In this document: piece by piece, positions 1 through 59,745 of the stretch
How positions within the stretch are numbered: position 1 is the first letter of the stretch
Layout: each line of letters opens with the position of its first letter
Assembly (NCBI RefSeq): GCF_025449215.1
Contig: NZ_CP104900.1
Span: 3,286,001-3,350,000 of the forward strand
Direction: 5' to 3'
Source of the DNA: Shewanella seohaensis
GTDB taxonomy: Bacteria; Pseudomonadota; Gammaproteobacteria; Enterobacterales; Shewanellaceae
Length of the DNA stretch: 64,000 nt
The notes under the pieces: generated by a model
Seen by the model: only the letters and a program-made list of their open reading frames with translations
What the model was told of the DNA's origin: nothing
The model's database searches: none
Program-made: the position numbers and the translations under genes

Positions 1-2229
1 ACGCTCTAAACGGGCGCTTGAGTGTTCTGGACCTTGACCTTCGTAACCGTGTGGTAACAGCATAGTCAGACCGCACAGACGGCCCCACTTTTGCTCACCA
101 GAAGACAAGAACTGGTCGATAACCACTTGCGCACAGTTAGCAAAGTCACCGAATTGGGCTTCCCAAATCGCCAGACCACCAGGTTCCGCAGTCGCATAAC
201 CGTATTCGAAGGCGAGTACTGATGCTTCAGACAATACTGAGTCAGTAATGTCGATTGGACCTTGGTCTTCAGACAAGTTACGCAGTGGTAAGTAAGTTGT
301 CGCATCGTTTTGGTTGTGCAGAACCGCGTGACGGTGGAAGAAAGTACCACGACCAGAGTCTTGACCTGTAATGCGAACACGTTGCTTGTCTTCAAGAATC
401 GTGGCGTAAGCTAAGGTTTCAGCAAAGCCCCAGTCGAGTAACTTCTCGCCCTTCGCCATCGCAACACGATCGCCATAAATTTTAGCAACGCGTGAATGCA
501 GCGGGTGGCTCTCTGGTACGTAGCTGAGCTTGTCAGCCAGCTTTTGCAGACGCTCAAGTGGCAGAGATGCTTGATACGCTTCGTCCCACTCACGGCCAAT
601 GTAAGGAGTCCAATCCACAGTGTGCAGTGTCATTGGGCGCCATTCTTTCACCACACAGTCACCTTGGTCTAAGGCGTCACGGTAGGTGTTGATCATGCTG
701 GTCACTTCATCAGCGCCGATGCTGTTTTCGGCGATCAGTTTGTCAGCGTAGATCTTACGTGGCGTTGGGTGTTTCTTGATCTTGGCATACATCAATGGCT
801 GAGTTGCACTTGGCTCGTCAGCTTCGTTGTGGCCATGACGGCGGTAACACACTAAGTCAATCACCACGTCACGTTTAAACTCGTTACGGTAATCAACAGC
901 AAGCTGTGCAACAAAGGCAACGGCTTCTGGATCGTCAGAGTTCACGTGGAAAATCGGTGCCTGAACCATCTTAGCGATGTCAGTACAGTATTCAGTTGAA
1001 CGCACATCAAAGTGGTTTGACGTTGTAAAACCAACTTGGTTGTTCACAACGATACGGATGCTGCCGCCCACTTTAAAGCCACGGGTTTGAGACATGTTGA
1101 ATGTCTCTTGCACGATACCTTGACCAGCAATTGCAGAGTCACCGTGAATCGTAATTGGCATCACCTGTAAACCGTCTTTACAACCACGGCGGTCTTGACG
1201 AGCACGGACAGAGCCCATAACCACAGGGTTAACGATTTCAAGGTGTGATGGGTTAAAGGCCAGTGCTAAGTGCACGTTGCCGCCCGGCGTTTCGAAATCT
1301 GAAGAGAAACCTTGGTGGTATTTTACGTCGCCTGAACCGTGGGTATCGGCGTGCTTACCGGCGAACTCGTCAAACAGTTCTGCTGGACGCTTACCTAACA
1401 CGTTCACCAGTACGTTTAAACGACCACGGTGAGCCATACCGACTACGATTTCTTTAGTGCCCGCTTCGCCTGCGCGATAAATGATTTCGCGCATCATAGG
1501 GACTAACGCATCGCCGCCTTCTAACGAGAAGCGTTTTGCACCAGGGAATTTAGCGCCTAAATATTTTTCAATGCCTTCAGCAGCATTTAGGCCTTCGAGA
1601 ATGCGGGTCTTAACGCTTTTATCGTAGTTGGCTTTACCTAAGGATGGTTCGAGACGTTGTTGGATCCAACGCTTCTCATCGGTATCGGTAATGTGCATGT
1701 ATTCGGCGCCAATCGAACCACAGTAAGTGGCTTTTAGCGCTTTGACTAAGTCAGCCAGCTTCATGGTTTCGCCGCCGTGGGCGAACGAGCCAGTGTTGAA
1801 CTCACGTTCCATGTCTTCTTTGGTCAGACCGTGGAATGCGGGATCTAAATCGGCAACAGGTTCACGTTTCCACAATTCTAACGGGTCGAGGTTAGCCCCT
1901 TGGTGACCACGGAAACGGTGGGCGTTGATCAGCTGTAGCACTTTAACTTGCTTAGCATCCAACTCAGGATCGGTCACACGAGCGGCGCTCTTATGACGTC
2001 CGTCCATCGCTAAACTGCGAAAATAATCACGTACTTTGGAGTGAGCCGCTTCAGGCGCGTCTTTAGAAGCACCGTTCACCGGAGGGAGATTATCAAACAC
2101 CGCTCGCCAGTCGTCTGAAACTGACTGAGGGTCCTCTTGATAGGCTTCATACATCTCTTCTACATAGGTCGAGTTCGCGCCACTCAAGTGAGACGAATCG
2201 AGCCAGGCTTTCATGATGCCTTGGTGCAT
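1..2229 (-). CDS. sucA: 2-oxoglutarate dehydrogenase E1 component (3' end outside window)
   Basis: This is the thiamine-diphosphate decarboxylase subunit of the 2-oxoglutarate dehydrogenase complex of the TCA cycle, acting with SucB and Lpd. The first 743 codons are present and the frame runs off the left edge. The start ATG at 2229 follows GGAATAGA, and the N-terminus contains KAWLDSSHLSGAN, very like E. coli SucA. Family blocks visible in order are VGMAHRGRLNVL, FNPSHLEIVNPVV, ITIHGDSAIAGQG, VVNNQVGFTTS and CYRRHGHNEADEP. It lies downstream of sdhCDAB on the same strand, the usual sdh-suc order, but a hairpin terminator separates them. Confidence 0.97.
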   Translation of the reverse strand, partial: MHQGIMKAWLDSSHLSGANSTYVEEMYEAYQEDPQSVSDDWRAVFDNLPPVNGASKDAPEAAHSKVRDYFRSLAMDGRHKSAARVTDPELDAKQVKVLQLINAHRFRGHQGANLDPLELWKREPVADLDPAFHGLTKEDMEREFNTGSFAHGGETMKLADLVKALKATYCGSIGAEYMHITDTDEKRWIQQRLEPSLGKANYDKSVKTRILEGLNAAEGIEKYLGAKFPGAKRFSLEGGDALVPMMREIIYRAGEAGTKEIVVGMAHRGRLNVLVNVLGKRPAELFDEFAGKHADTHGSGDVKYHQGFSSDFETPGGNVHLALAFNPSHLEIVNPVVMGSVRARQDRRGCKDGLQVMPITIHGDSAIAGQGIVQETFNMSQTRGFKVGGSIRIVVNNQVGFTTSNHFDVRSTEYCTDIAKMVQAPIFHVNSDDPEAVAFVAQLAVDYRNEFKRDVVIDLVCYRRHGHNEADEPSATQPLMYAKIKKHPTPRKIYADKLIAENSIGADEVTSMINTYRDALDQGDCVVKEWRPMTLHTVDWTPYIGREWDEAYQASLPLERLQKLADKLSYVPESHPLHSRVAKIYGDRVAMAKGEKLLDWGFAETLAYATILEDKQRVRITGQDSGRGTFFHRHAVLHNQNDATTYLPLRNLSEDQGPIDITDSVLSEASVLAFEYGYATAEPGGLAIWEAQFGDFANCAQVVIDQFLSSGEQKWGRLCGLTMLLPHGYEGQGPEHSSARLER

Positions 2230-2365
2230 TTCTATTCCTTTCAAACTTTATACACGTGCTTAGCCATAGTTTTTATATGCAATCTCAAGCAATTACCTTC
2301 GACGCATAAATTTTGCCGCCCCTAGATATCCAGATTTCACGGCGCGTTGTCTTCCATTACATACA

Positions 2366-2403
2366 CAAAAGAGCCACCTTCTATACCCAGAAAGTGACTC
2401 TTC
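2366..2403 (-). terminator. Hairpin terminator after sdhB
   Basis: Read on the minus strand, AGAGTCACTTT and AAGGTGGCTCT form an 11-bp stem with GT wobbles, followed by TTTT. It lies between sdhB and sucA, so it probably attenuates sdh transcription before suc. Confidence 0.7.
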
Positions 2404-2443
2404 GAGAGCTATATTATTATTGATTTAAGCTCGGGTTCTCGCA

Positions 2444-3151
2444 TTACACAGCTCGCTTAAGTAGCATTGACTTAATGTGTCCAATTGCTTTCGTCGGGTT
2501 GAGTCCTTTCGGACACACATCAACACAGTTCATGATGCCATGGCAACGGAATACGCTGTATGCATCGTCAAGCTCAGAAAGACGCTCTTCGGTCGCGGTA
2601 TCGCGGCTATCGATCAAGAAACGATAAGCATGCAACAGGCCGCTTGGTCCGACAAACTTGTCTGGGTTCCACCAGAATGATGGACAAGCCGTTGAACAAC
2701 ACGCACACATGATACACTCATAAAGACCATCTAAGTGCGCACGCTCTTCTGGCGATTGCAGATGCTCACGAGCTGGCGTCTTTTCATCGTTGATCAGGAA
2801 CGGTTTGATCTTCTCATACTGCTTGTAGAACTGAGTTAAATCAACCACTAAGTCACGCACAACAGGCATACCCGGCAGTGGACGTATTTCCAGTTTCTTA
2901 CCTTTGAAGGTAGAAATAGGCGTAATACAAGCCAGACCATTCTTACCATTCATGTTCACGCCATCACTACCACATACACCTTCACGGCATGAGCGACGGA
3001 ACGCCAACGTTGGGTCCTGTTCTTTTAACTTGATCAGTGCATCAAGCACCATCATGTCAGAGCCTTCAGCCACTTCAAGGCTGTAATCCTGCATGTAAGG
3101 TTTTGTATCTACATCAGGATTGTAACGATAAACTGCAAATTCCAATTTCAT
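2444..3151 (-). CDS. sdhB: Succinate dehydrogenase iron-sulfur subunit
   Basis: SdhB carries electrons from the SdhA flavin to quinone through three Fe-S clusters at the inner face of the cytoplasmic membrane. The 235 residues match the family length. The [2Fe-2S] ligands lie in CREGVCGSDGVNMNGKNGLAC (from about residue 55). The C-terminal ferredoxin part has CIMCACCSTACPSFWWNP and CHGIMNCVDVCPKGLNP. It is the last gene of sdhCDAB, 11 bp after sdhA. Confidence 0.98.
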   Translation of the reverse strand: MKLEFAVYRYNPDVDTKPYMQDYSLEVAEGSDMMVLDALIKLKEQDPTLAFRRSCREGVCGSDGVNMNGKNGLACITPISTFKGKKLEIRPLPGMPVVRDLVVDLTQFYKQYEKIKPFLINDEKTPAREHLQSPEERAHLDGLYECIMCACCSTACPSFWWNPDKFVGPSGLLHAYRFLIDSRDTATEERLSELDDAYSVFRCHGIMNCVDVCPKGLNPTKAIGHIKSMLLKRAV

Positions 3152-3162
3152 CTTTGCAACTC

Positions 3163-4929
3163 CTAGTAGGTACGTTTCTTCGGCGGGAATGCTTCACGTA
3201 ACTTAGGCGCCATATTCACAGCACGACGGTCCATGGTTTCAGTCACAGGGTCAAACAGGGTGTGACATAACCAGTTATCATCATCACGCTCTAAATAGTC
3301 TTCGCGTGAGTGCGCCCCACGACTCTCTTTACGGAAGTTAGCCGCGTAAGCCGTGGCGATGGCCGTTGCCATCAGGTTGTCTAACTCTAAACATTCAATA
3401 CGTTGAGTGTTGAATTCACGAGAGTTATCAGACAATTTGGCATTTTCTAAACGCTTACGGATAGCTTTTAACTGCTCTAAACCTTCTGCCATTGCATCGC
3501 CACGGCGGAATACAGAGAAGTTTAATTGCATGCAAAGTTGTAAATCTTTACGGATTTGCGCTGGGTCTTCGCCAGACTTGTTGCTTTCCCAGCGGTTTAA
3601 GCGTGCTAAAGTCGCTTGAATTTCCGCATCGGTAGCATCTTTAGGATCAGCAGTCTCATCCAGTGCCTTACCCAAGTGTTGACCCGCTGCGCGGCCAAAG
3701 ACCACTAAGTCAAGTAGCGAGTTACCACCTAAACGGTTGGCACCGTGTACCGATACACAGGCAATTTCGCCTACGGCGAATAAACCAACCACATCTTGCT
3801 CGCTGCCGTCTTCATTCTTACGAATCACCTGACCGCTCACCTTAGCAGGTAGACCACCCATCATATAGTGACAGGTTGGCAGAACAGGGATTGGGCCATC
3901 GGCCGGATCGATATGCGCGAAGGTACGAGACAGTTCACATACGCCAGGTAGACGTGCTTCGAGGGTCTCTTTACCTAAGTGATCAAGTTTCAGCAAGCAG
4001 TGAGGACCTAATGGGCCATCGAGACCACGACCTTCACGAATTTCAGTCATCATAGAACGTGCAACCACGTCACGCGATGCTAAGTCTTTCGCGTTTGGCG
4101 CATAACGCTCCATGAAACGCTCGCCGTCTTTGTTTAGCAGATATCCGCCTTCACCACGACAGCCTTCAGTGACCAGTACACCCGCGCCGGCGATACCGGT
4201 TGGGTGGAACTGCCACATTTCCATATCTTGCATCTGCACACCAGCGCGCATCGCCATACCGACGCCGTCACCCGTGTTGATGTGAGCGTTAGTGGTAGAG
4301 GCGTAGATACGGCCAGCACCACCTGTCGCGAGTACAGTGGCTTTGGCTTTGAAGTAAACAATCTCACCGGTTTCGATTTCGATTGCAGTACAGCCAACGA
4401 TAGCACCATCTTCGTTTTTCACGAGATCCAGTGCGTACCACTCAGAGAAGACTTGGGTCTTATGCTTAACGTTCTGCTGGTATAGGCAGTGGAGTAGCGC
4501 GTGACCAGTACGGTCGGCCGCAGCAGCGGTACGAGCTGCTTGCTCGCCACCGAAGTTTTTAGACTGGCCGCCAAAAGGACGCTGATAGATCTTACCGTTT
4601 TCGAAACGAGAGAATGGTAGACCCATATGCTCAAGCTCGATAATGGCTTCTGGACCGGTTTGACACATAAATTCGATAGCGTCTTGGTCACCGATAAAGT
4701 CGGAACCTTTTACCGTATCGTACATGTGTTGTTCCCAATGGTCTTCATGGGCGTTTCCTAGGGCTACGGTAATACCACCCTGGGCTGAAACGGTATGAGA
4801 ACGCGTTGGAAATACTTTAGATAACAGCGCGCAGCTCTTACCTTCTTTAGAAATCTGTAGTGCAGCTCGCATACCCGCGCCACCGGCGCCAATCACTACA
4901 GCATCAAATTCACGAACTGGAATACTCAC
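3163..4929 (-). CDS. sdhA: Succinate dehydrogenase flavoprotein subunit
   Basis: SdhA oxidises succinate to fumarate using covalently bound FAD. The 588 residues match E. coli. The FAD Rossmann motif [14 protein letters not shown] is at residues 11-24. The covalent flavin histidine is in [10 protein letters not shown] (His45). The family blocks [21 protein letters not shown] and [19 protein letters not shown] are present. It directly abuts sdhD and is followed by sdhB in one operon. Confidence 0.98.
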
Positions 4930-5277
4930 TTAAACACCCCACACAATAACAATGCCAGCAGCCAGATAACAAAAGACGGTGACGACGAAGGTGAACTGTA
5001 AAACACCGCGTAACGAAGTGCACTTGACGTAATCCGTCAATACTTGCCATACACCAATCCAGGCGTGAACAAGCAGTGCAACCAGCGCAAGCAGGGTAAA
5101 CACTTTCATTGGCAGAGCGCTAAACAGGCCGTGCCAAACGTCATAGGTGAGAGGGGAACTACATGCAATAAAGCCAACCATGAAAATGGTATAACAGGCG
5201 AGGATTACTGCACTAGCGCGTAGTAGAATAAAATCATGAACGCCACTGCGTCCAAGACTCGCTGCATTTGTTACCAT
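4930..5277 (-). CDS. sdhD: Succinate dehydrogenase membrane anchor subunit D
   Basis: SdhD is the second membrane anchor of complex II and shares heme b and the quinone site with SdhC. From the ATG at 5277 the product is 115 residues, the same as E. coli SdhD, and begins MVTNAASLGRSGVHDFILLR, close to the E. coli N-terminus. Three hydrophobic segments are visible, and HAWIGVWQVLTDYVK matches the conserved anchor block. A longer in-frame extension to 5436 lies inside sdhC and is not the start. The gene overlaps the end of sdhC by 7 bp. Confidence 0.95.
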   Translation of the reverse strand: MVTNAASLGRSGVHDFILLRASAVILACYTIFMVGFIACSSPLTYDVWHGLFSALPMKVFTLLALVALLVHAWIGVWQVLTDYVKCTSLRGVLQFTFVVTVFCYLAAGIVIVWGV

Positions 5278-7652: not shown

Positions 7653-8729
7653 ATGGAAAAGTCAAAAATTGCTAAGTTCGCCCTACCCGTGCTGTTAGTG
7701 TCAATGTTAGCGGCATGCGGCGAAGAGGAAGTGGCTAAAAAAGAAGAACAATATGCCATCCCCGTCGAAACCACTACCGTACTGCAGGGTAATGTGTCTT
7801 CGTTTTATAGCACTACGGCGACCCTCGAAGCTCCGCAGGAAGCCAATGTCGTCAGCCGCATTGCCGGCCTTATCGAAGCCATTAATGTCGAAGAAGGTGA
7901 CCGGGTACAAAAAGGCCAAATCCTCGCGGTTATCGATGCTAAACGTCAGCAATACGATCTCGACCGCTCCGAAGCCGAAGTGAAAATCATCGAGCAAGAG
8001 TTAAACCGTTTAAAGAAAATGAGCAACAAAGAGTTTATCAGTGCCGACTCGATGGCCAAGCTTGAGTACAACCTACAAGCTGCTATCGCCAAACGCGATC
8101 TTGCCGAACTACAAGTCAAAGAAAGCCATGTGGTCTCCCCCATCAATGGCATTATTGCTAAGCGTTATGTGAAGGCCGGTAACATGGCGAAAGAGTTTGG
8201 GGATCTGTTTTATATCGTCAATCAAGACGAACTGCACGGGATTGTGCATTTACCCGAGCAGCAATTAACTAGCCTGCGTTTAGGCCAAGAAGCCCAAGTC
8301 TTTAGCAATCAACAGAGCAAAAACGCTATCCACGCGAAAGTACTGCGCATCAGCCCAGTGGTCGACCCACAGAGCGGCACCTTTAAAGTGACGTTAGCCG
8401 TACCGAATCAGAATGCCCATTTAAAGGCCGGTATGTTCACTCGGGTCGAATTGAAGTATGACACCCATGAGAATGTAATAACCGTGCCCTACAGCGCCCT
8501 GATCAACCAAGACAACAGACAAGCCCTGTATGTGATTGACGGCACGAGCGCAGACCATCGCGCCAACCGCCGTGAAGTCGAAATTGGTTACCGTGAAGGC
8601 GACGCGGTGGAAGTGGTCTCCGGCCTCAAACCCGGCGAACAAGTCGTGACCCGTGGCCAGCAAAATTTGAAAGACCAATCCTTAGTTGAAGTCATTACCC
8701 CACTCCATTTGGCCTCAGCGAAGAACTGA
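7653..8729 (+). CDS. RND efflux periplasmic adaptor lipoprotein (MFP family)
   Basis: This membrane-fusion protein should link the two downstream RND permeases to an outer-membrane channel. The start at 7653 is chosen over an in-frame ATG at 7632 because it follows ACAGGTAATACTCTT and gives a proper signal: MEKSKIAKF, a hydrophobic core and the lipobox MLAACG. The lipoyl-like hairpin is visible at VVSRIAGLIEAINVEEGD and VKESHVVSPINGIIAKRYVK, with a coiled-coil segment between. Adaptor beta-barrel and proximal domains follow (GTFKVTLAVPN, GLKPGEQVVTRGQ). It lies 12 bp before the first permease. No outer-membrane factor is encoded nearby. Confidence 0.93.
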   Translation: MEKSKIAKFALPVLLVSMLAACGEEEVAKKEEQYAIPVETTTVLQGNVSSFYSTTATLEAPQEANVVSRIAGLIEAINVEEGDRVQKGQILAVIDAKRQQYDLDRSEAEVKIIEQELNRLKKMSNKEFISADSMAKLEYNLQAAIAKRDLAELQVKESHVVSPINGIIAKRYVKAGNMAKEFGDLFYIVNQDELHGIVHLPEQQLTSLRLGQEAQVFSNQQSKNAIHAKVLRISPVVDPQSGTFKVTLAVPNQNAHLKAGMFTRVELKYDTHENVITVPYSALINQDNRQALYVIDGTSADHRANRREVEIGYREGDAVEVVSGLKPGEQVVTRGQQNLKDQSLVEVITPLHLASAKN

Positions 8730-25281: not shown

Positions 25282-25493
25282 AACAATAATAGATAATTTA
25301 TATTGAAATTATTGATTTTTGTTATAGCTAACAGTTGCGATACACCCTGTTATCGGCCAAGCAATGCGAGATACGACAGTACAGGGTTGTAGCGCATTAT
25401 TAACCCTTAAAGCACAGTGCCCTCAAGCATAAGAATAATCGTGCATAAGTGCGCTTGAGCATAAGTACCATCCAGCATAAAAGATGAATCATC

Positions 25494-54084: not shown

Positions 54085-54741
54085 ATGGCATTATCAAGAG
54101 AACAACTGGCACAGCGCGTTGCCAAAGAATTACAAGACGGCTACTACGTCAACCTCGGTATTGGTATTCCCACGCTCGTGGCCAACTACATTCCCGCAGG
54201 CATGGAAGTGATGCTGCAATCGGAAAACGGCCTGCTCGGCATGGGTGAATTTCCGACGGAAGAAACCATCGATCCGGATTTAATCAACGCCGGCAAACAA
54301 ACCGTTACCGCGGTAAAAGGGGCCTCGTTTTTCTCCTCCGCCGAAAGCTTTGCGATGATCCGTGGCGGCCATGTGGACTTAACCGTACTCGGCGCCTTTG
54401 AGGTCGATGTGAATGGTTCCATTGCCTCATGGATGATCCCAGGCAAGCTCATCAAGGGCATGGGCGGCGCAATGGATTTAGTCGCGGGTGCGGAAAATAT
54501 CATCGTCACTATGATGCACGCCGATAAGTACGGCAACTCTAAGCTGTTACCCGTGTGCGAATTGCCCCTCACAGGTTACGGCTGTATCAAACGTGTTGTC
54601 ACCGATTTAGCCTTTATCGAGATTAAAGATGGCGCCTTCCATCTGTTAGAGCGCGCCCCCGGTGTCAGCGTTGAAGAAATTGTCAGCAAAACCGCTGGCA
54701 AATTAATCGTGCCTGACCATGTACCAGAGATGGTGTTTTAA
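54085..54741 (+). CDS. scoB: 3-oxoacid CoA-transferase subunit B
   Basis: ScoB carries the catalytic Glu in LQSENGLLGMGEFP. The 218-residue product from the ATG at 54085 (ribosome site AAGGATAAAGATC) also has YVNLGIGIPTLVANYIPAGM, GGHVDLTVLGAFEVDVNGS and KLIKGMGGAMDLVAGA. A longer in-frame start at 54043 has no ribosome site. It is the last gene of the liu operon and is followed by a strong terminator, so the operon turns isovaleryl-CoA into acetyl-CoA and acetoacetyl-CoA. Confidence 0.95.
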   Translation: MALSREQLAQRVAKELQDGYYVNLGIGIPTLVANYIPAGMEVMLQSENGLLGMGEFPTEETIDPDLINAGKQTVTAVKGASFFSSAESFAMIRGGHVDLTVLGAFEVDVNGSIASWMIPGKLIKGMGGAMDLVAGAENIIVTMMHADKYGNSKLLPVCELPLTGYGCIKRVVTDLAFIEIKDGAFHLLERAPGVSVEEIVSKTAGKLIVPDHVPEMVF

Positions 54742-54848
54742 GCGTTCTTTAAAATGCGCAAATAACCTATAGCAATAAGGCTTGAAACTTACGTTAAATT
54801 GAAGCTTTAGCCTAAAAAGTGTTGAGCGTTAACCGATTTTTTAGTTTT

Positions 54849-54881
54849 AAAAAGCCCAGAAGATGATTCTGGGCTTTTTAT
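54849..54881 (+). terminator. Terminator of the liu-sco operon
   Basis: AAAAAGCCCAGAA-GATGA-TTCTGGGCTTTTT, a 13-bp stem ending in a T-run, follows scoB by about 110 bp. Confidence 0.92.
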
Positions 54882-55387
54882 TGCTTTGCTTAACTGTCGA
54901 GTGCAACAGCACTTATGCTCTGGCGACACGCCGTAAACCCATCCTTGGGGGCTCAACGAAAAAGTCCCTTTTTCCGATGGTCGCCAATGCATCAGCGCTG
55001 TTTGCTGCAATGTTCTGCGTATTCAACCCTGCTTTATACATCGTGTGCATTGGTGACTTGTATAGCCGTTTTACCTCACAGTTAGCCACCCTGTATGCAG
55101 TTGCGGTAAACTTGCCGCAGCCTAAATAGTAAGGATGCTCAAGTTGTTAGCTAAATATCTTAATGTTGGTGAGAAATAAGTCTTATACTAAACTGTCAAT
55201 TATCCCTGCTAGAACCGTTTAAGATTAAACGTGGCCAAAAATACAGATTCATACTAGTTGCTACTACCAAGTCCAAACCAAGCTACAACTGAGTATTAAA
55301 GTATCATACTCGTTGTAACTCACTTCGGGACATTTTCGAGTTAAAGACTTAACTCTAACAAGTCTGTTTTGGATAAAAATTTCTATG
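54882..55387. other. Non-coding spacer with a possible ORF relic
   Basis: No secure gene lies in these 506 bp. A frame from about 54895 to 55129 (+) reads ALATRRKPILGGSTKKSLFP, then MVANASALFAAMFCVF. It has no good ribosome site and overlaps the liu terminator at its start, so I do not call it a gene. GAGTAT...ATACTC near 55291-55312 is a weak inverted repeat. The stretch marks the boundary between core genes and the AT-rich island. Confidence 0.4.
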
Positions 55388-55460
55388 GATTAACGCCGCG
55401 CTCACCGATAAATTAGGAGCACAGCGAGTAATTTATCCGAGTGCAGCGCCTTGTTATAAG
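55388..55460 (-). repeat. attC-like recombination site (integron cassette site)
   Basis: On the minus strand this 73-bp imperfect palindrome begins CTTATAAC-AAGGCGCTGCACTCGG and ends CGGTGAGCGCGGCGTTAATC. AAC and GTT are the core trinucleotides of the outer (R-type) sites. The arms (GCGCT...CA..CGGATAAATTA against TAATTTATCGGTGAGCGC) pair with a few extra bases on one arm, as in folded attC sites. The loop is CTCGCTGTGCTCC. Length lies within the usual attC range. R-site consensus (RYYYAAC, GTTRRRY) is met imperfectly. Confidence 0.72.
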
Positions 55461-55491
55461 TCGTTTTTCTTTACAGTCGTATATAGAGAAA

Positions 55492-57389
55492 TCAATTAAA
55501 AGATTTTAGGCTTTTATTTGACTCGCTATATTCCTCACCAACTATATAATCCTTTGACCTTAAACTTTCATCAATATTTTTTGTCGCAAAGACCAATTGA
55601 AAATCTGTTTCGTAACGGGATAGAGCCTCAACAACGACCTTTTGAAAGTTCTTCGAGCGGTCATCTTCCATCCCGCCATTTTCAATACCATCGAGAACCA
55701 AGAATCTGGGGAGGCGTACATATGTTTTTTCAAGTGCTGCCATCAACAGAGCAACATGAAAAGCGTTATTTAACAAGACTATTCCACTTTCTGAGAAGGC
55801 TGTTTTTCCATTCACTGATACACTATTGGCAGCAAAATCAAACTCTGCATACTCTGCATTTTTAAATTCCTTTTCTGAACCATTATCTTTTCGAAGCAAC
55901 TCACAAAGCTTCTCGGAGATAAGCGCCTGAATTTCCGGCTCACGCTTAAATCTTTGTTTTCCTATCAATTCTATTTTGTCACTAAGCCTGTTAACTTCAG
56001 ACTGAACAGTGTCTCGCTCACCACGCAATTCGATTAAAGACTGATGAAGCTCAGCAATTTTATCTAATGTTTGAAGTTTTTCTTCGAGTTCACCTGTTAG
56101 CCGGTAAAGATCAAATAGCTGCCTTTCTTTGCTTGCATCGACAGAGCTCATGCTTGCAGTAACTTTGCTAACTTGTTTCCTGAATAAGCTTCTTAATTCC
56201 TTTCGCTTATTTGTAAGATCCGTTAGTTTTTGCTTTTTCTTTTCCAATAACTTTTCAGATTCACGAAGCTGGATTGCTATTTCATTCTTCATTCTAAGGA
56301 GACTATTCGAACTATCTGTTGACTCTATCGGCTCACCACATAAGCTACAGCAGTCCTTGGCTTTTTCTTTGAGTGATTTATGGCAACTTGGACACGATGA
56401 GAATTTGAATCCATCAATCAAACCTCCAACTTTAATTGAGTCTCTTAGCGCACACTGTTTGTCAATAAGCTCAGATACAAACTCTTCAGAGTCAAGTATA
56501 TTGTAATTCAATTGCTGAATTTCAGTTTCTACCTCTAACAGTTTGTTCCGAATTGCTACGCTTTCTTTTGCAGAGGATTCTGTTTCTTTTTTATCAGAAC
56601 TGTATGAAATCAAAGACTTCTCTTTAACATCTATAATTTCGACATTAATAGAGGCAATTTTATCTAATATATTTTTTTCTGTTCTTCAATGGTTCCGACA
56701 CCCTCACCAAAAGAAGTCTTTCCAACGACCGACTGAATTGCCTGAAGTTTTGCAATTATCTTTTGTAGATTCTTTTCTTCTTCAATAAGTTTTATCTTTG
56801 CGTCATAAAGTTCATTATCGTATAAGCCTAATAAGTATTTACCTACAGATTCCCTTTTGAATGCAGAATCGAACGGCTCATTGTTAAATATGGCACTAGA
56901 AGTATTTGATTGGTCTGCATAAATTAGTCGATATACTTGATGTAAAGTTACATTGTTATTGTTTGCATCTGCTTTTGCTTCGGGCAGGCCAAGTACTTCA
57001 AACATTTGTTGAGAAAAACTCGGTTTGCTTCCTATTGAATACGGATAATTAAACCAATTTGTGAGAGGAGAGGCTAATGCCACATCCATTTCTGAAAAAC
57101 AAAAATCCATTGATTGCTTATCTGAACCATTGTTTTTACGCCTAATGGTAACGGGACTGCCATTGACTTTTAACTCAACATAAATATTGTCACAAAGACC
57201 CGCTTCTTCTTTCCAATTTGGGACTTCGTATCCTAGTCCATACATTAAAAGTTGAATTACGGAGGTTTTGCCAGAACCATTCTTACCAGACAATACATTA
57301 ACGCCATGATGAAAGGCTTCATCAAAAGCGACTATAGAGCCTCTTTTTACATGAAGCCTCTCAACCTTCAAAGTAGGTTTAATTAACAT
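55492..57389 (-). CDS. Rad50/SMC-like ABC ATPase of an ABC-3C-type system (one-base frameshift)
   Basis: When repaired this is a 632-residue ABC ATPase. Walker A is LSGKNGSGKTSV (residues 34-45). A long coiled coil surrounds a four-Cys hook, CPSCHKSL and CCSLCGEP, as in Rad50. Walker B is in LPRFLVLDGIENGGMEDDRS near the C-terminus, then LVFATKNIDESL. The frame breaks at the seven-base run 56672-56678; an eighth restores EEQKKNILDKIASINVEIID. Its start overlaps the middle-component gene by 11 bp. Such ATPases are the motor or sensor of ABC-3C conflict systems; the function here is inferred. Confidence 0.8.
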
Positions 57390-57882
57390 CGTATCTATAA
57401 TCCATTAAGCTTGTTATTTTTTTTAGTCCATCAGAACCCGTAACTGAGATCGATATTAAATTTTCAACAATAAAATCAATTGCTTGACTAGATATGCTAT
57501 TTTCTTTTGATTCAGCTAAGCTCTTTAATCCTTCAGGAATATTTTCGAGGTAGACATTATATTCCGAGGAGTTATTACCTGTTTTCAACACCCCAAGAAC
57601 AACTAGTCGCTCAATAGCAAGAAAATGTATTTCTTTCATCGCATTGAAGAGACTTTTTGGTTCAAAATTCTGATATCGGTTTTTGTAACTTTTAAACTCA
57701 TTTTTATCGGTAAATTTATCTCTTGGAACAGATAGTTTTTCAATATGTGCAGGATTTGCGATTAAGAAGTCAAATAAACGCAGTGCATCACTTTCTAGAC
57801 TTTCAGCTTTCCAAGAAATTAGTAATGCCGTCATGCGCAGAAGTGTATGGTTTGGATCCAGAGCTTTGTTATATAAAAGCAT
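57379..57882 (-). CDS. ABC-3C-type middle component
   Basis: The ATG at 57882 overlaps the previous stop as TAATG and has GGAG upstream, giving 167 residues. It begins MLLYNKALDPNHTLLRMTAL, a pattern typical of middle components of ABC-three-component systems, followed by a helical region (DALRLFDFLIANPAHI) and a likely winged-helix part (FNAMKEIHFLAIERLVVLGV). No catalytic motif is visible. Middle components are thought to link the ATPase with the partner protein; assignment rests on position, length and the N-terminal pattern. Confidence 0.65.
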   Translation of the reverse strand: MLLYNKALDPNHTLLRMTALLISWKAESLESDALRLFDFLIANPAHIEKLSVPRDKFTDKNEFKSYKNRYQNFEPKSLFNAMKEIHFLAIERLVVLGVLKTGNNSSEYNVYLENIPEGLKSLAESKENSISSQAIDFIVENLISISVTGSDGLKKITSLMDYRYDVN

Positions 57883-58421
57883 TATTTCCACTCCAAGTGG
57901 CAATTCCCCGTAAGGAAATAAACCATGCCATTGATTTGACGATTGAAAATTTCTAAAACATTATCACCTAGGTGAGCTTGAATTTCTTTCTCAAGATGCG
58001 TTCTGAAAAGTAGCTTCAATGCTGCTTCTTCCCTTACATCAAGTAACCTTATTTTAATATTTGCGTTAAAAATAGACTCAACTTCGGCCAATAGATAAGT
58101 AATGATTTTCTGAGCCGACTTGTAATGCTGATTCCGAATAATTAACTTACTAACTTCTTCCTTTAGTTCCTCTCCGACATCAACCAAATAACCAAACCCA
58201 GCATCTTCAAGTTTTTCAGTCAAATCTCGAATATCGTAATTTTCATTACTATAGTGAGTCAGCTCATCAATAATTACATAAGTCACTTGTTGATTTGACT
58301 TTTCTTCAACATACTTTTGCGACAGCAAATCCATCTGTGTAGGAGCTGGTAAGATATTTGTTATCTTGTCTCGTCCAACAACATCTCCGCCGGCCGTAAT
58401 ATTTCTGAGCCAATTAAACAT
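57882..58421 (-). CDS. ABC-3C-type partner protein with N-terminal GGDVVGRDK motif
   Basis: This 179-residue protein starts MFNWLRNITAGGDVVGRDKI. The GGDVVGRDK segment is a short motif that recurs before effectors or scaffolds in bacterial conflict systems. The remainder is helical and acidic, with ESIFNANIKIRLLDVREEAA and FRTHLEKEIQAHLGDNVLEI, as in the C-terminal partner domain of ABC-3C systems. It has no TM helix. It begins directly after the stop of the small membrane peptide and overlaps the next gene by 1 bp. The mode of action is unknown. Confidence 0.65.
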   Translation of the reverse strand: MFNWLRNITAGGDVVGRDKITNILPAPTQMDLLSQKYVEEKSNQQVTYVIIDELTHYSNENYDIRDLTEKLEDAGFGYLVDVGEELKEEVSKLIIRNQHYKSAQKIITYLLAEVESIFNANIKIRLLDVREEAALKLLFRTHLEKEIQAHLGDNVLEIFNRQINGMVYFLTGNCHLEWK

Positions 58422-58583
58422 TTACTTTTGAACCTTATCTCGGCCTACAACGTCGCCGCCAGCTCGTACATTTTTAAAGTTGCTTTTACTTCCAGATCTG
58501 AAGCTGATTACAACTTTTATTCCAAGCCCTAGTACAGCCAGAATAGCTACAGCTATTAAGCCAATTGTTATTAAATTATCCAT
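58422..58583 (-). CDS. Small membrane peptide with GGDVVGRDK motif
   Basis: This short gene encodes 53 residues: an N-terminal helix (LITIGLIAVAILAVLGLGIK) and a C-terminal soluble tail FKNVRAGGDVVGRDKVQK. The ATG at 58583 follows AAAGGTACTGAA. Its stop is directly followed by the ATG of the partner gene, which carries the same GGDVVGRDK motif, so the two were probably split or duplicated from one module. It could be the membrane anchor or sensor of the system. It is easy to miss because it is short. Confidence 0.72.
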   Translation of the reverse strand: MDNLITIGLIAVAILAVLGLGIKVVISFRSGSKSNFKNVRAGGDVVGRDKVQK

Positions 58584-58673
58584 TTCAGTACCTTTTGAAC
58601 TAACTTATGTAATCGCACAGACTGATAAACCCGTTTGGGAGTTAGCGCTAGTGCTGCTGATTATGAACTCAGA

Positions 58674-58681
58674 CTTATAAC
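58674..58681 (-). other. Putative upstream boundary of the cassette
   Basis: GTTATAAG on the minus strand is the exact inverse complement of CTTATAAC, the start of the attC-like site at 55460. In an integron cassette these two sequences are derived from the two ends of the same circle and match in this way. It lies 91 bp before the first island gene. Confidence 0.55.
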
Positions 58682-58692
58682 ATTTTATTCCT

Positions 58693-58733
58693 ACGCATGC
58701 GCGTTTACCTCATTAGACCTGTGAAAACGCGCA
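58693..58733. repeat. Inverted repeat with ACGCGCAT core
   Basis: TGCGCGTTT (about 58698-58706) and AAACGCGCA (about 58725-58733) are inverted copies around a 17-18-bp loop, beside the cassette boundary. Confidence 0.65.
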
Positions 58734-58786
58734 CGGTTAACTATCTGTATGCAAACAACTTATCAGCTTTCTGCCAAATATACCAT

Positions 58787-58816
58787 CTGGCAAAACGCGC
58801 ATGCGCGTTTTGCCAG
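58787..58816. repeat. Perfect 30-bp palindrome
   Basis: The left arm CTGGCAAAACGCGCA is followed directly by its exact reverse complement. The central ACGCGCATGCGCGT is shared in part with the inverted repeat at 58693-58733. There is no T-run and no gene end next to it. Confidence 0.9.
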
Positions 58817-59083
58817 ACCTATGAACTAAAAGCAAGATACTATAGTCAATTGATTTTATAGCGTTTTATTTATTGCGTATGGAATTAGTGCGCACTGATT
58901 TTGTCTAAAAATAATACCAAAACACCTAAATTTAAATATGACTGTATAGCCATACATTATTAGCCGTTTAGCGGTAGGGCCAAACATAGGTAACTAGATG
59001 AAAATTTGTATAGCAGCAGGAGTGGGAATTCTCGATTGAGCTAACTAACCGAAATCGGAATGGGGCATTAGCTTTTTTGGCAA

Positions 59084-59248
59084 ATGAACAGTTCAATGAT
59101 CGTAAAGATTGCCATTGTTGCAACTGTGACCGTTGGCGGCATGGATGCCGCCGGCGAGCCTATAGGGATATATTCACGGCGTGTCACAGGGGAAACAGTG
59201 GCAATGCATATATCGCAATATCCGATTCAGCCGACTTGTTTTGGGGCA
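59084..59248 (+). repeat. Direct repeat copy 1
   Basis: First copy of a diverged non-coding unit beginning ATGAACAGTTCAATGATCGT, containing GTTGGCGGCATGGATGCC, GGCGTGTCACAGGGGAAACA and ending CCGACTTGTTTTGGGGCA. No sustained reading frame is shared by both copies. Confidence 0.88.
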
Positions 59249-59264
59249 AAAAACTTTTAGCCAG

Positions 59265-59546
59265 ATGAACAGTTCAATGGTCGTTAAGATTGTCATTGTT
59301 GCAACTGTGACGTTGGCGGCATGGCCGCTCTTTCACATCTAACCCATAAGGATATGGGAAATGCCACTATGATGTCGGGAATATCATAGGCCATGTGAAC
59401 GCGGCATTTACACTTCCATGTGTTGCAGATGCCGCCGTCGAGCCTATAGGAATACTTCTTGTAAAATAAAAGGACGGCGTGTCACTGGGGAAACAGTGGC
59501 AATGCATATATCGTAATATCCGGTTCAGCCGACTTGTTTTGGGGCA
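59265..59546 (+). repeat. Direct repeat copy 2 with a 103-bp insert
   Basis: Second copy beginning ATGAACAGTTCAATGGTCGT. After GTTGGCGGCATGG about 103 extra bases (59325-59427) are present, then GATGCCGCCGTCGAGCCTAT onward matches copy 1 again, to CCGACTTGTTTTGGGGCA. The two copies are 16 bp apart, a tandem duplication with later divergence. Confidence 0.88.
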
Positions 59547-59745
59547 TAATGGGCTTAGAAATAGCAACGTACCTATGAGCTCACTGCCATTTCAGTATGA
59601 GACTTTATTACTCTCCCACTCTTAATAAACGCAGTCACAAACATATGGGTGATTATGTTGCAACGACAGGGAGCGACGGATTGATGATGCGGCCGATGAC
59701 GTGTTAACCCACACATTAACCAGAATACAAACCAGAGGACAAAGG

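Follow-up and report, generated by a model that had tools for sequence, protein, structure and literature searches.

A four-gene cassette with an ABC-three-component operon in Shewanella seohaensis, probably captured at one of a dispersed family of integrase-less attI copies

Introduction

Here we describe a gene cassette with an ABC-three-component (Lamassu-like) operon in Shewanella seohaensis, located in a 64-kb stretch of a genome assembled as a single contig of 4.75 Mb (genome G000, contig C1, positions 3286001-3350000; hereafter the window). We consider it very probable that this cassette was captured at a copy of the integron attachment site attI that has no integrase gene beside it, and that this copy is one of a dispersed family of docking units filled by an integrase acting in trans. 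The cassette, the attI copy, the repeated architecture of the units, the different cargo at the same chromosomal places, and the same or related cassettes in different arrays are all read directly from the genomes compared.

The usual description of an integron is one integrase, one attI and one array, and sedentary chromosomal integrons, such as those of Vibrio, have one platform with one long array. The system described here has attI, attC, cassettes and a putative LexA box at PintI in common with the latter, but consists of many short arrays at many attI copies. If such dispersed copies serve as integration sites, each new cassette could take the first position in an array of its own; many of the single cassettes known from Shewanella would thereby be explained, and a list of candidate hot spots of exchange would be at hand.

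Results

A gene cassette with a single attC site

Judged by its sequence, the unit at 55394-58680 is a true integron gene cassette (Table 1). An initial annotation of the window had proposed one oversized four-gene cassette, and this proposal stands: the palindrome lies on the stated strand and at the stated distance from the ATPase stop (55492), the two ends match as described, the attC is genuine, and the same G/TT-bounded unit (the slash marks the cleavage point) recurs at a second locus, L144. The sequence CTTATAAC at 55453-55460 matches GTTATAAG at 58674-58681, the R'' box being complementary to the cassette's own 5' end. With the G of attI at 58681, the exact ends fall at most two bases from the boundaries first proposed.

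Table 1. Features of the cassette locus, in window positions
Feature	Positions	Strand	Description
Gene cassette	55394..58680	-	3287 bp; start TTATAAG (58680), end GGCG (55394); G/TT on both sides
attC site	55388..55460	-	R'' CTTATAAC, L'', extrahelical G, L', R' GTTAATC; recognised by covariance model R1 (window excluded from training)
attI copy	58681..58832	-	without adjoining integrase gene; cleavage point between G58681 and T58680
attI extension	58833..59209	-	conserved; candidate LexA-box-like ACTGTATA at about 58940-58957, the PintI position of intI platforms
Array-end sequence	55315..55393	-	TTANCCCATAGAWATTTTTATCC.. with GAGTTAA..TTAACTC hairpin
Whole inserted element	55165..59619		imperfect terminal inverted repeats GTTGGTGAGAAATAAG.. 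/ GTGGGAGAGTAATAAA..
Gene 1	58422..58583	-	53 aa; hydrophobic N-terminal stretch, C-terminal end AGGDVVGRDKVQK; without family match
Gene 2	57882..58421	-	179 aa; ABC-3C C-terminal domain 9 (PF20285), 106.4 bits, cut-off 27.9
Gene 3	57379..57882	-	ABC-3C middle component 5 (PF20291), 166.3 bits, cut-off 25
Gene 4	55492..57389	-	SMC-like ATPase in two frames, 56664-57389 and 55492-56613

Plain folding of the palindrome gave z-scores of -2.8 and -2.4, modestly above chance, and a home-made motif-and-stem scan scored the site at 13.2, where the highest scores in each of four shuffles were 11.4 to 12.4, while giving 13.9 to another palindrome of the window (25282-25323). As these approaches were too weak alone, we built a covariance model from 16 attC sites of other loci (15 last in their unit, one internal), with the window excluded. 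In the training alignment 86.6% of 232 cells pair, the 48 two-sided changes compare with a shuffled mean of 16.6 (none of 500 shuffles was as high), and the pairing signal is lost when the partner is shifted by 1-3 columns; the structure was written from the same 16 sequences, which favours these pairing statistics. Run on the 64-kb window, the model accepted the proposed attC (55388-55459, minus strand, 42.9 bits, E 1.2e-8). Its only other match up to E 5 reached 12.1 bits, and the palindrome at 25282-25323 was not among its matches. With filters off, no other site in 55300-58900 exceeded 6.5 bits, so the cassette has one attC. The R''/R' and L''/L' boxes, the extrahelical base and the cassette orientation are all in place, and one attC with no intI nearby is the composition of a single attC site lacking an integron integrase (SALIN). 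An Rfam scan of 54700-59700 returned nothing of use; a promoter scan of the cassette gave fewer matches than shuffles, and no promoter is claimed.

The same unit is found in different contexts, among three loci drawn from a single-protein scan that reaches close relatives only. In Shewanella oncorhynchi (L144) the cargo comparison finds the cassette at 91.3% identity across 3285 bp, with the same ends; the match runs from 170 to 3460 of a query in which the cassette occupies 171-3457 (91.2%), so that only the cassette unit is covered. It stands second there, in an array beginning at another attI copy (83.7% over 135 nt, last bases diverged), and is flanked by attC matches at 5127-5228, itself a training site of the model, and 8446-8516. 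A Halomonas metagenome-assembled genome (L145, 5224-8506) has a near-complete cassette at 88.5% without attI or array-end match and with a weak attC match (19.6 bits, E 0.069), and an Alteromonas locus (L146) has the operon alone, at 74% identity and without an attC match. The Halomonas locus is, as a separate observation, a candidate cassette insertion outside integrons in a genus other than Shewanella.

A copy of the Shewanella-type attI before the cassette

Both flanks of the cassette are repeated across the genus. The approximately 150 bp before it adjoin intI in seven of 30 fetched intI loci at 62-87% identity (87% in G013, 80-83% in G097, G085 and G060, and 62-66% in three others), and a homologous attI likewise adjoins intI in G015. 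This agrees with the place of attI in complete integrons, between intI, with its LexA box, and the cassettes. The Shewanella-type attI is given as a 28-nt core (PMC9892861), of which the window copy matches 25 positions, with three mismatches; the 43 other attI loci show 0 (14 loci), 1 (16), 2 (10), 3 (2) or, in L034, 7 mismatches, so that the core is present at 0-3 mismatches in 42 of them. By these alignments the cassette sits at a copy of the Shewanella-type attI, and its site is thus not one of attG insertion. The extension beyond attI, about 80-89% identical in many copies of G000, G015 and G024, aligns with the PintI region of the intI platforms; past the LexA-box-like ACTGTATA, a candidate only, the integrase-less copies diverge from the platforms.

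A stray cassette at a chance secondary (attG-like) site is highly improbable: such an account is in keeping with a window that has no integrase gene and with a single attC, but the insertion site is a 150-bp attI copy, of which the genome has ten, and the array end is conserved too. The labels first given to the locus, a stray cassette or a lone-attC type, are thus not supported, there being an attI copy before the cassette, a conserved array end after it, and an intI, albeit broken, elsewhere in the genome.

At four units of G000 and G015 (L007, L035, L039 and L055) an insertion sequence (IS), presumably IS110-like, lies exactly at the attI end, with the junction ..AATAAAAT/AATGAAATGG.., as if the element targets attI.

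The cargo is an ABC-three-component operon with a broken ATPase gene

A middle component, an ATPase and a partner bearing a C-terminal domain (CTD) stand together in one operon, as in ABC-three-component (ABC-3C) systems, the ATPase being broken here. Gene 3 encodes 167 aa from ATG or 174 aa from an upstream TTG. The frame of gene 4 is interrupted at an A-rich run in the window, and is intact in L144, L145 and L146, with 637 codons open from stop to stop. Genes 1 and 2 have the motif AGGDVVGRDK, spotted by eye, in common. Middle component 5, the CTD9 partner and an ATPase whose pieces are LmuB-like by PADLOC models liken the operon to ABC-three-component and Lamassu systems, from which it differs in its extra 53-aa peptide and in having no LmuA among the PADLOC matches listed for the cassette proteins; with LmuB-like pieces and a weak LmuC match (19.9 bits), it is not classed as Lamassu proper. 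From its family membership the operon is probably anti-phage, and with its ATPase frame broken, it may be dead in its present form.

Docking units with the same architecture are dispersed over the genome

Counting as full any attI copy of 140 nt or more, we found 10 in G000, 14 in G024, 9 in G015 and 7 in G013; in G000, G015 and G013 the intI platform accounts for one of these, which leaves 6 to 14 integrase-less copies per genome across the four genomes. Most copies head a unit of attI, cassettes and array end without an integrase gene. A query joining attI and array end matched at least 76 of 129 genomes of the genus, with the best 6 candidates scored per genome, and an order-wide search with attI, scoring the best 2 candidates in each of 295 genomes, matched at least 18, of which 13 are of Shewanella and 5 of another family. 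A few matches that crossed the attI - array-end junction, such as G000:1933195-1933365 (query 61-232), were read as chance similarity of the next cassette and set aside.

The array-end pattern was present in 29 of 38 attI-bearing stretches examined; 27 were kept, the poor L140 and L036 being discarded, and in 26 of these 27 GTT stands directly before it. It also closes three intI-bearing arrays (L134, L137 and L007). Nearly all attC matches in 45 loci (87 of 92) lie on the cassette strand and follow attI, preceding the array end in those loci where it was recognised, and in 23 of 28 units an attC match ends at the array end; with 15 of the 16 training sites being unit ends, these placements hold partly by construction. 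A whole-genome attC search in three genomes placed 28 of 39 listed matches, correctly oriented, at most 8 kb downstream of an attI copy, counts that are lower bounds, as 150 of about 1100 candidates were scored and the window's own attC was missed.

Among 20 cassette proteins picked by eye from open reading frames (one of them from L144), six matched Pfam families above the curated cut-off (DMP19, DUF6559, NADAR, TIR with Mrr, T5orf172 with MUG113, and DUF5677), four below it (HSDR_N, trypsin-like, GIY-YIG and Mrr), and ten had no match. PADLOC matched seven of eight unit proteins to something (candidate-defence families, SIR2, a weak TIR effector). Defence-like cargo is thus common in this small protein sample, but not universal.

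As a separate count, 31 of 40 cassettes in G000, G013, G015 and G024 (7 of 7 in G013) are co-directional with replication, orthologous copies being counted several times.

Different cargo at the same places, related cassettes at different ones

Locus comparison showed that units occupy the same chromosomal places in different genomes, with flanks that are mostly 90-97% identical among G000, G015 and G024. Eight comparisons of cargo at six orthologous sites (the window with L044; L033/L047; L034/L054; L035/L046/L065; L040/L051; L062/L056) found no nucleotide similarity. Past the attI end 0-4 nt are shared, zero being confined to pairs that involve L034, with its changed attI end, or L035, where an IS occupies the junction. 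Sharing at the array end amounts to 0-7 nt in the seven comparisons with both ends known (L056 is without a recognised array end). In a seventh pair, L038/L048, DNA is shared only further downstream, and the array ends are unrecognised. Conversely, the first cassette of L033 in G000, encoding a DMP19 protein, has a relative in L048 of G024 (81% over 379 nt from the first base), and these two loci are at non-orthologous attI copies.

Such turnover could be driven mainly by homologous recombination, incoming chromosomal DNA swapping the whole unit via its flanks, attI and array end, and the integrase having acted long ago. The high identity of orthologous flanks, the broken state of the genome's own intI, and the attI copies of G013, whose identity of 97-100% over about 145 bp is what gene conversion would produce, all speak for this possibility. 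We regard it as unlikely, however, as the window cassette recurs with the same ends as the second member of a different array in L144, and related cassettes occupy the first position at attI copies of G000 and G024 that are not orthologous. In G013, four loci have in common a tract of about 475 bp that begins at attI -145 and extends to about +330: at L133 (the attI of intI), L066 and L140 it is 100% identical or almost so, and at a third integrase-less unit, L067, it is 96% identical, the copies continuing with different DNA within a few bases after ATCG/TTA; this shared tract may reflect unit duplication or gene conversion.

The integron integrase is distant and broken

The integrase search of the genome called for by the initial annotation did find a gene, outside the window; it is, however, broken. 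A single intI match exceeds the family cut-off (G000:C1:4532677-4533558, 368 bits), 1.19 Mb from the cassette locus, and the locus is not a complete integron, having no integrase gene beside attI or in the window. At the intI locus (L007:7604-8562, about 4532.6-4533.6 kb) an IS, which we take to be ISL3-like, separates intI from attI. In G024 the intI matches are on another contig, C2. Across the genus an integron integrase was found at E 1e-60 or better in 58 of 97 genomes.

The array at the intI locus of G000 also has genes resembling type I restriction-modification.

These observations bear on whether the units are relics, that is, duplicated integrons that have lost intI and are decaying with frozen cassettes. 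Many unit-bearing genomes without an intI match, the broken intI of G000 and G015, and the broken ATPase of the window cassette would all agree with decay. On the other hand, cargo differs at the same place between genomes, and attI cores are kept at 0-3 mismatches in 42 of 43 loci; we consider frozen relics quite improbable.

Units on plasmids and in a phage

Matches to attI were found in 18 plasmid records (11 of Shewanella, 2 of Pseudoalteromonas and 5 of enterobacteria, the last including Citrobacter, Escherichia coli and Moellerella as well as Enterobacter) and in one Shewanella phage, represented by two records. In phage M16-3 an annotated integron integrase with a LexA site is followed by the attI sequence and then by small genes, with attC matches between many of them. 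An IncC conjugative plasmid of Enterobacter hormaechei, from a human source (L163; NZ_AP019818.1 62437-76584), has attI, a fosG cassette, a sugar O-acetyltransferase cassette and the array end, with an attC match after each cassette. Within the stretch viewed, the annotation gives no integrase other than a 634-aa "site-specific integrase", which lies just upstream together with two small genes. The same layout on this plasmid shows that integrase-less units can travel.

On a plasmid of S. baltica OS195 (L164; NC_009998.1) an ABC-3C operon (middle component 1) is annotated directly upstream of an attI unit with two attC matches and an array end.

Discussion

A docking unit, as we understand it, consists of attI, one to several cassettes each ended by an attC, and the conserved array end, with no adjoining integrase gene. 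The integrase would be supplied in trans, by a resident intI in some genomes and by a plasmid or phage in others, and would recombine the attC of a circular cassette with the attI of the unit at G/TT. Acting on dispersed attI copies, one integrase could fill many chromosomal sites. A wider picture is then conceivable, of a many-site integron in Shewanella-type bacteria, in which one integrase class, whether resident, plasmid-borne or phage-borne, would serve transposable integrase-less attI units at fixed places, each a separate hot spot of cassette exchange with cargo that is often defence-related, and with units also on an enterobacterial conjugative plasmid; for this generalisation we see the case as evenly balanced.

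Several observations weigh against capture in trans at dispersed attI copies. A frameshift near codon 26 disrupts the resident intI, and the gene of G015 (L137) has the same lesion. Of the 39 genus genomes without an intI match at E 1e-60, 19 have at least five matches to the query that joins attI and array end, so a large number of units persist where no integrase is resident. In 23 of the 30 fetched intI loci no such attI was detected beside intI at the sensitivity used, and this attI may therefore serve only part of the integrases of the genus. Five of the 28 units (L044, L054 and L067, together with L036 and L140, which are doubtful) are without an attC match that ends at the array end, and 11 of the 39 listed genomic attC matches have no recognised attI upstream; around several of these 11 there are array-end matches, mostly weak, and no good attI match. 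The end of the shared G013 tract is not a recognised attC (best plus-strand match 2.0 bits; fold z -0.7), and this tract is consequently not counted as the work of an integrase. Finally, no empty attI - array-end junction was seen among the matches listed in the 129 genus genomes.

Parts of this picture are already in print: scattered single cassettes in Shewanella, and an attI before one integrase-less prophage array. Clusters of attC sites lacking integron integrases (CALINs) occur in most Shewanella, and 115 single orphan cassettes were counted in 41 genomes (PMC9229058). Like those CALINs and SALINs, the units described here are single or few scattered cassettes away from intI, whereas attI at the sites, a conserved array end, conserved positions and cargo turnover go unmentioned in the portion of that account available. 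The closest precedent is the integrase-less array that starts with the Shewanella-type attI in the cryptic prophage M16-3 (PMC9892861). The same attI core heads both, but that case is one array in one prophage, while each of our four genomes has between 6 and 14 integrase-less copies, several of which hold conserved positions in the chromosome and differ in cargo. Cassettes inserted at attG sites, which PMC12901181 mentions, likewise come to lie far from intI, whereas here the target is a full attI copy. The accessible portions of PMC2426708, PMC3053210, PMC3108266, PMC10011109 and PMC10127599 have nothing on dispersed attI copies, and the open-licence literature yielded no account of attI units that are present in multiple copies, at conserved places and with changing cargo, which is weak evidence of absence, as most subscription papers fall outside it. 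According to PMC9024848, attI is poorly described outside class 1 and IntegronFinder detects no attI outside class 1 integrons, so that such units are easily missed.

The larger inserted element

In the window, the cassette, attI and array end lie within a larger element (Table 1), itself between 7-bp direct repeats TCTTAAT (55158-55164 and 59620-59626). It is present at the same place in G024 and absent from G015, G002 and G029; the G024 site has the same flanks and other cargo, including a TIR-Mrr protein. This distribution suggests that the docking element came first and its cassettes changed later, and the inverted repeats with the 7-bp target duplication suggest that the larger element of the window arrived by transposition. 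No clear target duplication accompanies L043, a second element whose ends are similar, and inverted repeats between the outer flanks occur in 8 of 27 units examined and are of several different kinds, so no common transposon end is established.

It might be argued that the whole family consists of transposons with variable passengers, whose hairpins are terminators rather than recombination sites. The inverted ends and target duplication of the window's element fit such an account, but the hairpin has the box layout and covariation of an attC and also delimits the window cassette in its second context, L144, and the lack of a clear target duplication at L043 does not favour it; we judge it very improbable beside capture of cassettes at attI. 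The initial annotation had also called for an empty site in related genomes with the flanks joined at G/TT, and none was present among the matches listed for the 129 genus genomes (best 6 candidates per genome).

A repeated intergenic sequence, CCGTTGGCGGCATGGATGCCGCC.., with many copies in these genomes, lies at 59061-59549 of the window, and at times flanks units as inverted copies on both sides.

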